A program made the position numbers and the translations under genes. From NCBI RefSeq assembly GCF_017876495.1, contig NZ_JAGIOB010000001.1, positions 248,001-312,000 on the forward strand: a stretch of DNA of 64,000 bases, in the 5' to 3' direction. This DNA comes from Microlunatus capsulatus (GTDB lineage: Bacteria > Actinomycetota > Actinomycetes > Propionibacteriales > Propionibacteriaceae). The notes below the pieces were generated by a model that was not told the origin of the DNA, searched no databases, and was given only the letters and a program-made list of their open reading frames with translations. Shown here one piece after another: positions 41,301 to 43,001 of the stretch; within the stretch, counting starts at the first letter, position 1, and the number at the start of each line of letters is the position of its first letter.

Positions 41301-41479
41301 CCGCCCGGGTCGCCGGCTCGCGGCTCCCCCTGGTCGACGCCGACGCCCCCGGACCCCCGCTGGACCTCCAGCTGGCCTGGTGGCCGGTGCTGCTGCTGGG
41401 GGCCGGCGCGGTCCTCGTCATCGCGGTCGTCGCCCAGGTCGGGGCCCTCGCCGAGGTGCGCGCGGAGGAGGACCGGTGA
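38378..41479 (+). CDS. FtsX-like ABC transporter permease
   Basis: A 1033-residue protein. A membrane helix near the N-terminus (HIAVLLCLLSAVAVMTSVLG, about 13-32) is followed by a large outer domain, a group of helices at about 285-485 (FtsX domain), a second outer domain, and a final set of helices from about 900 to 1025. This is the MacB/LolE-like permease architecture of type VII ABC systems, used for moving lipoproteins, peptides or drugs at the outer face of the membrane. Starts GTG; two ATPase genes follow with GTGA overlaps. Confidence 0.85.
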   Translation: MSGPLWLRSVQRRPHIAVLLCLLSAVAVMTSVLGPLLVRAVQQSTLSDALEASGLPGTSISVSGDAGADDPWLSVEDLAVAAVEAGRQAAPQQWEDPQVLTRSTSLTFSTARTGAAPTAALVNAVDGDCGAFRLTEGRCPAAPGQAMLSTADATAREVAVGDRLSFSLARVPRTTVTVVGLYDADGSATAGLTRPGTTAGVAAGVEADPLVLSRRQAEELPLPVEISVRLALRPGLAVGDVPVVQASVEQLKTATNAQDRLLAVQSQLPEVLDRVDDQASAARVLVLVTDVQAVFLALFALAIVLQRIGRTRAGEWSVGRLRGVPRGRWLRSVLTEPLLAILVGLPLGFLAGSAVGRLGADLVLRPGTPVEPWRWPVVAAAVATTVVAVAALVGVTLPSIRRPLAELVQQESESRRLTTAGAVVHAGVFLLAAATIYQLVTGGRLSSSGPQLGLLAPGLFALAVALGAVRLAVVVVRRVTTRPPRGLASLVVGRHAARTPSSLNPAMVIAVGVALAVFASQVLVFSERNQGLRADAVTGASTVLGVSVAPGADLLTAVRAADPDGRQAMAVQQSAVVASNGAARILAVDSPRLAAVSSWSPDWAGVDDLAPALTAGQREPVVLRGERVDVELADLELLPLQLPPSAPRDAVYPPPPPDLALTVEAQGRWQTVRLGPLERSAREQRLTAALPCAAGCRLVSIGLAAGANAPYRATLTVTGVGTDVQPVADSAAWLALDQGWHEQTANDTQPEPTAMATPAASPDGLALVAFDEQGGSVTAVSPGDTVDPLPALLGPTTSLTPVPGRVGAVNGIGLDGQDQRLTVLGTAAVLPRWLDDGVLVDLGAARTLSDPAASQMVDQVWLAPGASPQLEERLAENGVRVQSRELLSTTREALEQQATTRGAAVAVVISVAALALSLLALVAARWTDAGRRRTDWRALREGGVSPRRLRRLARTEIAAPAVLAVVVGLLAGAAAARVAGSRLPLVDADAPGPPLDLQLAWWPVLLLGAGAVLVIAVVAQVGALAEVRAEEDR

Positions 41480-42327
41480 CCGGGACGCAGCAGGGGGCGG
41501 CGGTCCGCACCGTCGGGGTGGTGCACGTCTACCGGGTGGCCGGCACCGACGTGGCCGCGCTGCGCGGCGTCGACCTCGCGGTCGCCCCGGGCGAGCGGGT
41601 GGCCCTGCTCGGTCCCTCGGGCTCGGGCAAGTCCACGCTGCTGAGCGTGGTCGCGGGGCTCCGCCGCCCGTCGGCGGGCTCGGTGCTGGTCGACGGCCGT
41701 GACATCGCCCGCTACACGGAGGCGCAGCTCTACGGCTACCGCAGCGAGAGCCTCGGGCTGATGATGCAGGGCGCGGTCTCCAACCTGCTGCCCTACGCCA
41801 GCCCGCGGGAGAACGTCGCCTTCGTCGGCGGCCGGGGCCGGTCCCGCGGCCGCGACCCGGTGGCCGAGGAGGCGCTGGCCGCGGCCGGGCTGGCCGACGA
41901 GCGACGACCGGTGGGGGTGCTCGGCCGCGCGGACCAGCAGGCGACGGCGCTCGCGGTCGCCATGGCCGGCAGCCCGCGCCTGCTGCTGGTCGACGAGCCC
42001 ACCAGCCAGCTGGACGACGACGCCCGCGAGAGCCTGCTGGACACCCTGGTCCAGACGACGACGGCCGTCGGCACCACCTTGCTGATGGTCACCCACGACG
42101 AGCAGGTCGCGCACCGCATGCAGCGGATGGTCCGGATGCGCGACGGCCGGGTGGGGGCCGAGGGCCAGCGGCACGAGCAGTACGCGGTGATCGGCGCCGA
42201 CGGCTCGGTGCAGCTGCCCGAGGAGCTGCTGGCGTCCTGGCCCGCCGGGTCCACCGTGTCGGTGCAGGCCTCCTCCCCCGACGAGATCAGCATCCGCCGG
42301 CGGCTGCCGGCCGAGGAGGCGCCGTGA
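41476..42327 (+). CDS. ABC transporter ATPase with intact Walker A and degenerate signature
   Basis: The 283-residue NBD starts in a GTGA overlap with the permease. It has a complete Walker [10 protein letters not shown] (46-54), a Q-loop (Gln98 in LMMQGAVS), Walker B LLLVDEP (169-175), D-loop SQLD and H-loop THD with His207. The signature LSGGQ is replaced by [10 protein letters not shown] (149-158). A C-terminal extension of about 60 residues follows ([13 protein letters not shown] onward), not part of the NBD. With the next ATPase it should form an asymmetric heterodimer. Confidence 0.9.
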
Positions 42328-43001
42328 GCGGCGGAGCAGCGGGCAGCGCGTCGACCGGGCTGCGGGTCCGCGGGCTGGTCGTCACCGTCCCGGCCGGCGG
42401 CGCCGCGGCCGGCCGTGAGCGCCGGACCGTCGTGGAGGGCCTCGACCTCGACCTGGCCGCGGGCGGGCGGCTCGCGATCACCGGGCCGTCGAGCGCCGAC
42501 GTCACCGCCGTGCTGGCCCGGCTGGCCGGCCTGCGGGCACCGGCCGCCGGCTCGGTGGTGCTCGACGGCACCGACCTCGGCCTGGACCCCGACCCGCGCC
42601 GCCTCGGCTACCTCAGCCAGGAGCACCGGCTGATCGGCACGCTGACCGCGGTGGAGAACCTCCTGGTCACCCTGATCGCGGGCGGCGAGCCACCCACCCG
42701 GGCGACCGGCGCGCGGGCAGAGGCCCAGCTGGAGGCCCTGGGGCTCTCCCCCGCGACCTGGCACAACCTGGTCGAGCAGCTCTCCGGCGGTCAGCAGCAG
42801 CGGGTGGCGCTGGCCCGCGCGCTGGTGCTGCGGCCCCGGCTGGTGGTGCTCGACGAGCCGACCAGCGAGCTGGACCCCGACAGCGTCGAGCGGGTGGTGG
42901 GCGTGCTCGAGGCGGTCGCCGCCGACGGCGTGTGCTGCGTGCTCAGCAGCGACGACGAGGTGGTGCTGGGCGCCTGCGGCAGCCGGGTCGCGCTCGGCTG
43001 A
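42324..43001 (+). CDS. ABC transporter ATPase with degenerate Walker A and intact signature
   Basis: The 225-residue NBD overlaps the previous gene by GTGA. The Walker A position is GPSSADVTA (54-62), lacking the invariant Lys and both following Gly-Lys-Ser/Thr. The signature [15 protein letters not shown] (153-167) and Walker B LVVLDEP (173-179) are intact, as is Gln99. The H-loop is VLSSDDEV, without His. The defects are the mirror image of those of its partner, so it can complete the partner's ATP site but not bind ATP productively in its own. Confidence 0.9.

Follow-up and report, generated by a model that had tools for sequence, protein, structure and literature searches.

Many ABC transporters retain a broken ATP-binding site, and why they do so, and whether ATP must remain bound there, are the questions raised by three genes in the window, namely the 64,000-nucleotide stretch of Microlunatus capsulatus DNA analyzed here. 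The genes lie head to tail in the order permease, NBD1, NBD2, and at both junctions the stop codon of one gene shares four bases with the start codon of the next (Table 1). The permease and the two ATPase genes thus form one overlapping unit. An initial sequence-only reading had described a 1033-residue FtsX-type permease accompanied by two ATPases with complementary defects, and the permease is indeed present directly upstream of NBD1. Four-base overlaps of this kind, those of the window included, are found at the permease-NBD1 junction in 82 of 116 loci of the family and at the NBD1-NBD2 junction in 73 of 116.

Table 1. Positions of the operon genes and of the ATPase motifs within the window.
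Feature	Position	Strand	Basis
Permease gene, 1033 aa	38378..41479	+	translation, GTG start presumed; Pfam FtsX, E=1.3e-12, two stretches
GTGA, overlap of permease stop and NBD1 start	41476..41479	+	sequence
NBD1 gene, 283 aa, ABC ATPase with broken signature	41476..42327	+	Pfam ABC_tran, 2.3e-24
NBD1 Walker A, intact	41611..41637	+	sequence, translation, alignment
NBD1 signature, LGRADQQ in place of LSGGQQQ	41920..41940	+	sequence, translation, alignment
NBD1 Walker B LLLVDE, intact	41980..41997	+	sequence, translation, alignment
NBD1 H-loop His, intact	42094..42096	+	sequence, translation, alignment
GTGA, overlap of NBD1 stop and NBD2 start	42324..42327	+	sequence
NBD2 gene, 225 aa, ABC ATPase	42324..43001	+	Pfam ABC_tran, 3.5e-24
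NBD2 Walker A, GPSSADVT; Lys to Val at 42501-42503	42483..42506	+	sequence, translation, alignment
NBD2 Q-loop Gln, retained	42618..42620	+	sequence, translation, alignment
NBD2 signature LSGGQ, intact (LSGGQQQ)	42780..42794	+	sequence, translation, alignment
NBD2 Walker B LVVLDE (LVVLDEP), Asp and Glu retained	42840..42857	+	sequence, translation, alignment
NBD2 H-loop position, His to Asp (SDD)	42951..42953	+	sequence, translation, alignment

As can be seen from Table 1, the motifs first reported for NBD1 (Walker A, Walker B, and the H-loop present, the signature destroyed) and for NBD2 (a perfect LSGGQ, no Walker A lysine in GPSSADVTA, and no H-loop histidine) are confirmed. The Q-loop and the D-loop Asp of NBD1 are intact as well. 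The assignment of these motifs to composite sites follows the general geometry of the ABC dimer given in PMC7756269. Each homodimer would lack one partner motif, and hence only the heterodimer could form a complete ATP site. On the basis of the sequences, the predicted complete site (site 1) is built from the Walker A, Q-loop, Walker B, and H-loop of NBD1 and the signature of NBD2. The pair displays, by its motifs, the pattern of a degenerate-site ABC protein with one canonical composite site and another without catalytic residues. The original statement that one site is complete holds; its second half, that the other lacks every key element, does not, for the broken site (site 2) retains, from NBD2, the Asp and Glu of Walker B as well as the Q-loop Gln and, from NBD1, the D-loop Asp, and therefore not every element has been lost.

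Both ATPases resemble those of LolD, FtsE, and MacB systems, although in NCBIfam only by models that score below their cut-offs. The best model for NBD1 is LolD with 127.8 bits against a cut-off of 307.75, and its five best models comprise LolD twice, YbbA (125.6 bits, cut-off 336), and FtsE, all below the equivalog cut-offs, plus one importer model. The best models for NBD2, again below cut-off, are DevA and FtsE.

The permease is predicted from the hydropathy of the window sequence and of a six-row alignment to contain ten transmembrane helices, delineated by residues 16-34, 286-304, 338-356, 377-395, 422-440, 458-476, 507-525, 904-922, 957-975, and 1004-1022, in a 4+2+4 pattern. A weaker hydrophobic stretch at 540-558 was counted as no helix. 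Two extracellular domains of about 250 and 380 residues are predicted at ∼35-285 and ∼526-903. The FtsX model of Pfam matches 16 of the 17 members of the larger permease alignment (E up to 1), and the profile of that alignment gives weak PDB matches to YtrF, PsdB, MacB, an ABC permease, LolF, BceB, and FtsX (E 1.7e-5 to 0.03), with one unrelated chain at 0.23. The protein is thus an FtsX-like permease, as found in Type VII (MacB/FtsX superfamily) systems. Four cysteines lie in the two outside domains and may form disulfides. Cys 696 is invariant and Cys 129 and Cys 139 are nearly so among the 17 permeases, and Cys 692 is invariant in alignments of six and five nearer ones.

By hydropathy prediction the permease contains, in one chain, the two fused FtsX units and linking helices that characterize the YbbAP and BceAB type. 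A review of MacB describes the ten-helix layout in just these terms, as two fused permease units and two linking helices (PMC5985334). In YbbP the external domains are placed between helices 1-2 and 7-8, the coupling helices lie between 2-3 and 8-9, and two ATPases are bound (PMC12646458). The predicted permease of the window matches the Type VII YbbAP-TesA system of E. coli in its ten helices, its large external domains at TM1-2 and TM7-8, its two extra linking helices, and the position of the ATPases on the inside. In YbbAP-TesA, however, YbbA is present in two identical copies (PMC12646458), whereas here there are two different ATPases and one broken composite site. In part of the Type VII table of PMC11466899, each system has two copies of one ATPase. 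Two divergent ATPase genes were found in 116 of the 120 loci of the present family, which departs from the homodimeric ATPase of the YbbAP and BceAB type. Nor is the operon of the MacAB-TolC kind, in which the ATPase is fused to a four-helix permease, since its ATPase genes are separate and ten helices are predicted.

From these sequence features, the operon quite likely encodes a Type VII machine of the MacB/FtsX fold, having one ten-helix pseudo-twofold permease, two different ATPases, a single complete ATP site, and a decayed site opposite. The heterodimer predicted by the sequence-only reading, with one complete and one broken composite site on a single fused FtsX-type permease, is supported at the level of sequence by the four-base overlaps and by the recovery of the same clade from all three genes, as described below.

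A search with the permease detected relatives in 22 of 57 near genomes, that of the window included. Profile searches extended this to at least 37 of 393 genomes of the class (E up to 1e-20) and at least 41 of 293 of the order (E up to 1e-60). Two further families, those of a Frondihabitans and a Phycicoccus locus, contributed at least 13 of 249 and at least 34 of 186 genomes, respectively (E up to 1e-60), and the phylum at least 7 of 296 (1e-40), the centre genome being counted in each of these profile searches. These figures are lower bounds because few candidates were scored per genome: two in the class, phylum, and order searches, and three and four in the two family searches. The ATPases were typed with profiles built on the first set of relatives. 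Of the 122 loci read together, 120 combine a permease with an ATPase, and both ATPase types are present in 116; the exact order permease-NBD1-NBD2 occurs in 85 of the 120. Nineteen loci (L044, L046, L049-L053, L089-L091, L100, L101, L110, L112, L114-L118) carry two adjacent large FtsX-type permeases by one NBD1/NBD2 pair, in the orders 2PP1, 12PP, or PP12, the fragmented or doubtful L048, L128, and L237 being excluded. Four of the 120 loci do not have both ATPases. Of these, L109 and L265 are cut by a contig end. L272 (G459:C5:44800-55000) and L279 (G465:C44:243700-253900), both on long contigs, contain a permease and an NBD1 with the signature LTPGQ but no NBD2 match in the stretch; genome G459 also carries a second, complete copy elsewhere (L276).

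Motif residues were compared in 111 loci, namely the 116 minus L245 and L249, whose ATPases are identical to those of L092 and L094, L038 and L093, in which an ATPase is incomplete or misaligned, and L231, in which NBD1 is split. The loci without both ATPases (L109, L113, L119, L265, L272, L279) never entered this set, and a distant group (L120-L125) and the loci of the phylum search (L292-L297) were examined on their own. Motif columns were taken from a MAFFT alignment. Where a P-loop or H-loop is badly decayed, its absence is certain but not the precise letter at each position.

Site 1 is canonical in 111 of 111 loci at each of its elements: the Lys, Gln, Asp, Glu, and His of NBD1 and the signature (xSGG) and D-loop Asp of NBD2. 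In site 2 the part contributed by NBD1 has a canonical signature in 29 loci and the D-loop Asp in 85, and the part contributed by NBD2 has the Lys in 99, the Gln in 103, the Glu in 100, and the His in 93. The Walker B Asp of NBD2 is the sole element of site 2 present in all 111. The NBD1 signature is broken in 82 loci. All 12 loci that have lost the NBD2 Lys belong to these, the remaining 70 retain it, and a loss of Lys with an intact NBD1 signature was observed in none of the 111. The defects within the 111 loci are nested and one-sided. It had been asked at the outset whether the two defects always occur together, and the 70 loci of 111 with a broken signature and a retained Lys answer that they do not. 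Complete ATPases in homologous operons, which the sequence-only reading regarded as contrary to its proposal, were encountered in part: in 29 of 111 loci the signature, Walker A, Q-loop, Walker B, and H-loop are intact in both proteins, and 19 of these also have the NBD1 D-loop Asp. The defects are therefore not fixed across the family.

In seven loci (L110, L112, L114-L118) the NBD1 signature is intact (MSGGQ) and the D-loop Asp is replaced by Ser, such that the same site is broken by another route. Among the phylum loci with both ATPases (L292, L294-L296), all are intact on both sides apart from L295 (G1173:C64:2100-12200; a phylum locus, not listed in the class), whose NBD2 signature, LSAGQ, is the only non-canonical one on the conserved side. 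In the distant group, those ATPases of L120-L124 that are readable in full are likewise intact on both sides. These two groups fit two intact sites as the starting state.

The two ATPases might instead form homodimers, or pair with a third ATPase encoded elsewhere, in favor of which L272 and L279 carry a permease and NBD1 with no NBD2 nearby. Such an arrangement is nevertheless very improbable, given that neither ATPase by itself can form a complete site, that the genes overlap by four bases, that both ATPase types occur together in 116 of the 120 loci having a permease and an ATPase, and that the defects are confined to one composite site in 111 of 111. Pairing of NBD1 with NBD2 is the reading followed below.

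The locus of the window belongs to a clade of 15 loci: L031-L033 from its own genus, L126 (Phycicoccus sonneratiae), L127 and L128 (Frondihabitans), L136 (Curtobacterium), and L230-L237. In all 15 the second Gly of the NBD1 signature and the His of NBD2 have been lost. The NBD2 Lys is lost in 12 of 15, being kept in L127, L128, and L230, and the lost P-loops vary from branch to branch. The NBD2 Glu is changed to Asp in 10 of 15 and to His in L033. Three clade loci are damaged: the permease lies in several frames in L128 (Frondihabitans sucicola) and L237 (G760), and NBD1 is split over two frames in L231 (G664). To judge from the sequences, this would reflect either recent damage or sequencing errors. 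No neighboring gene common to the whole clade was found among the 13 clade loci compared, and thus no function is tied to the operon by its surroundings. The two neighbor clusters that span all 13 are antisense frames overlapping the operon genes, and the smaller clusters hold three to four loci each, several of them within L233-L235. Beside the Phycicoccus operon (L126, 6643-8749, minus strand) lie open reading frames that by eye resemble a sigma factor and an anti-sigma protein.

A permease tree of 49 loci, which includes 13 of the 15 clade members (L128 and L237 being left out), places all 13 on one branch with a support of 100. Trees of NBD1 and NBD2 calculated without the motif columns for 48 loci (L231 left out as well, giving 12 clade rows) recover the same clade with supports of 99 and 90, respectively. 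On the permease tree the minimum number of changes, by parsimony with regain allowed, is three for the NBD2 Lys (K2), five for the His (H2), four for the Glu (E2), seven for the NBD1 D-loop, and five for the Gln (Q2). A tree constrained to group the clade rows without the Lys is worse by 109 log units (p 0.0004). Since rows with an intact Lys are nested within the clade, the Lys has been either lost several times or regained.

Among the 97 loci outside the clade, L054, a locus from the genus of the window, is the only one without the Lys and the Glu; the His is lost there too, and L092, L102, and L261 have Asn in its place. L054 displays the signature LRPGS, no P-loop, Gln changed to Asp, Glu to Gln, His to Asp, and Ala in the D-loop. 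It lies outside the clade for the permease and NBD1, less clearly so for NBD2. A shared origin of L054 and the clade was rejected with the permease (AU test, p 1e-7) and with NBD1 (p 0.005) but not with NBD2 (p 0.33). L054 is a long branch under a simple model. On these trees, L054 apparently reached its extreme state independently.

The NBD2 P-loop of the window is found again in G011 and G010, two further species of the genus, whose proteins are 76% and 69% identical, and it is thus invariant across three sister species. Against G011 and G010, respectively, the permease has dN/dS ratios (NG86) of 0.28 and 0.38, NBD1 of 0.16 and 0.19, and NBD2 of 0.39 and 0.30. By these ratios NBD2 is evidently under purifying selection, weaker than that on NBD1. 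The loss of two key residues and the faster evolution of NBD2 (0.30-0.39 as compared to 0.16-0.19) are what might be expected of a decaying pseudogene or of a sequencing artefact. That idea is scarcely credible, however, because the NBD2 frame is open, its dN/dS is below 0.4, its signature and D-loop are 100% identical among the clade members compared, three species of the genus share the P-loop, and 15 of 15 clade loci show both the broken NBD1 signature and the lost NBD2 His. Neither a broken frame nor a dN/dS near 1 was observed for NBD2 in the two sister species compared. A pseudogene, chance, or error was accordingly rejected on the P-loop shared by sister species, ratios of 0.16-0.39 over three genes, and conservation in the clade.

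The comparison of conservation took in 13 rows of the clade, leaving out L231 and L235, and 35 rows from other loci. In NBD2 the mean pairwise identity is 0.34 for Walker A and 0.24 for the H-loop, versus 0.41 for all columns; the signature and D-loop reach 1.00, and Walker B, at 0.58, lies above the 0.41 of the gene. In NBD1, Walker A and the H-loop are at 1.00 and the signature is at 0.39 versus 0.55 overall. By this measure there is no visible sign that the broken site is conserved for another purpose. The invariant Walker B Asp, the Glu and Gln kept in 100 and 103 loci, and the Walker B identity of 0.58 in the clade indicate that a portion of site 2 remains under constraint, perhaps for structural reasons. 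The odd P-loop that is invariant in the three sister species might represent a new role, structural or local.

Site 2 could instead bind ATP without hydrolysis, as a permanent glue, in the manner suggested for other exporters with degenerate sites; Mg-ATP would then be kept in place by the Q-loop together with the Asp and Glu of Walker B. In NBD2 the Walker B Asp (111 of 111) and the Gln (103 of 111) would suit such a role, and the degenerate site of Pdr5 binds ATP though its Walker A Lys is a Cys (PMC8421411, PMC7756269). Against it, the NBD2 Walker A of the clade varies by branch and shows lower conservation than other parts of the protein, and the NBD1 signature is without its second Gly in 15 of 15 clade loci; we consider it unlikely. 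Tentatively, and with somewhat less than an even chance of being correct, we suggest that site 2 of the clade has neither nucleotide binding nor constraint as a nucleotide site. The clade members would then be natural single-ATP ABC machines, and the family an evolutionary series that starts with two intact sites and ends with one, its degenerate site drifting without taking up a new role.

The mechanism that we envisage begins with the pairing of NBD1 and NBD2 as a heterodimer, one on each half of the permease. Because the permease is fused and each ATPase has its own half, two gene copies could specialize easily. Decay would have followed the order of the nesting, with the NBD1 signature or D-loop lost first, then the NBD2 His, and then the NBD2 Lys and Glu. 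One ATP would be bound and hydrolyzed per cycle, at site 1, and the opposite interface would be held by protein contacts, serving as a hinge rather than a second engine. Closure of the ATPases would act, by way of the two coupling loops, on the two extracellular domains of the permease, a mechanotransmission as in YbbAP, LolCDE, and MacB. Its effect would be exerted on the outer side of the membrane, where the machine probably extracts a hydrophobic or amphipathic molecule or acts on something located there, the nature of the substrate being a guess.

The sequence-only reading regarded the defects as more extreme than in known heterodimeric exporters such as TM287/288 or CFTR. That they exceed anything known is not borne out by the literature, as yeast Pdr5, in which every motif of one site is altered (PMC7756269), ABCG5/G8 (PMC7756502), and NupO (PMC11466899) already carry such defects. 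Pdr5 and the PDR proteins of fungi and plants have one canonical site and another in which the signature, Walker A Lys, and H-loop His are changed; in Pdr5 the degenerate site has Lys replaced by Cys, Glu by Asn, His by Tyr, and the signature LNVEQ (PMC7756269, PMC8421411). Pdr5 differs, however, in being a eukaryotic single chain of the order NBD-TMD-NBD-TMD that has also lost the catalytic Glu, whereas the window encodes separate proteins, an FtsX-type permease, and a retained Glu. Human ABCG5/G8 shows just this complementary pair of defects, the signature being broken in one ATPase (ISTGE) and the Walker A Lys lost in the other (GSSGCGRAS), but the transmembrane fold and the replaced residues are different (PMC7756502). 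The importers RbsA and NupO of B. subtilis provide a bacterial case in which the second Walker A has no Lys and the signature deviates, in NupO with the loss of the Walker B residues as well; these are fused ATPase domains of a Type II importer (PMC11466899). The Type IV exporters TM287/288 and BmrCD are likewise bacterial heterodimers with one degenerate site; their membrane fold differs from that of the FtsX-type permease, and in BmrCD ATP is bound at the degenerate site (PMC7828314).

Complementary degenerate sites are thus already known, and what is new here, as far as the literature searched extends, is a Type VII family in which the decay is graded and lies on one side. In that literature, which mostly excludes subscription journals and is represented in part by excerpts, no degenerate sites in FtsX or Type VII systems, no graded one-sided series, and no repeated loss of the Lys were found. 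According to PMC7756269, the sequences of degenerate sites have not deviated among orthologues, and its argument rests on that conservation. A drifting site 2, if true, would run contrary to this view. The present family places the degenerate-site phenomenon in Type VII machines. Within one bacterial family of separate small genes there are stages from two intact sites to one without the Walker A Lys, the signature, and the His, and it is the same side that decays. Given these graded stages, the question of why a broken site is kept, and whether ATP must stay there, becomes testable by comparing natural relatives.
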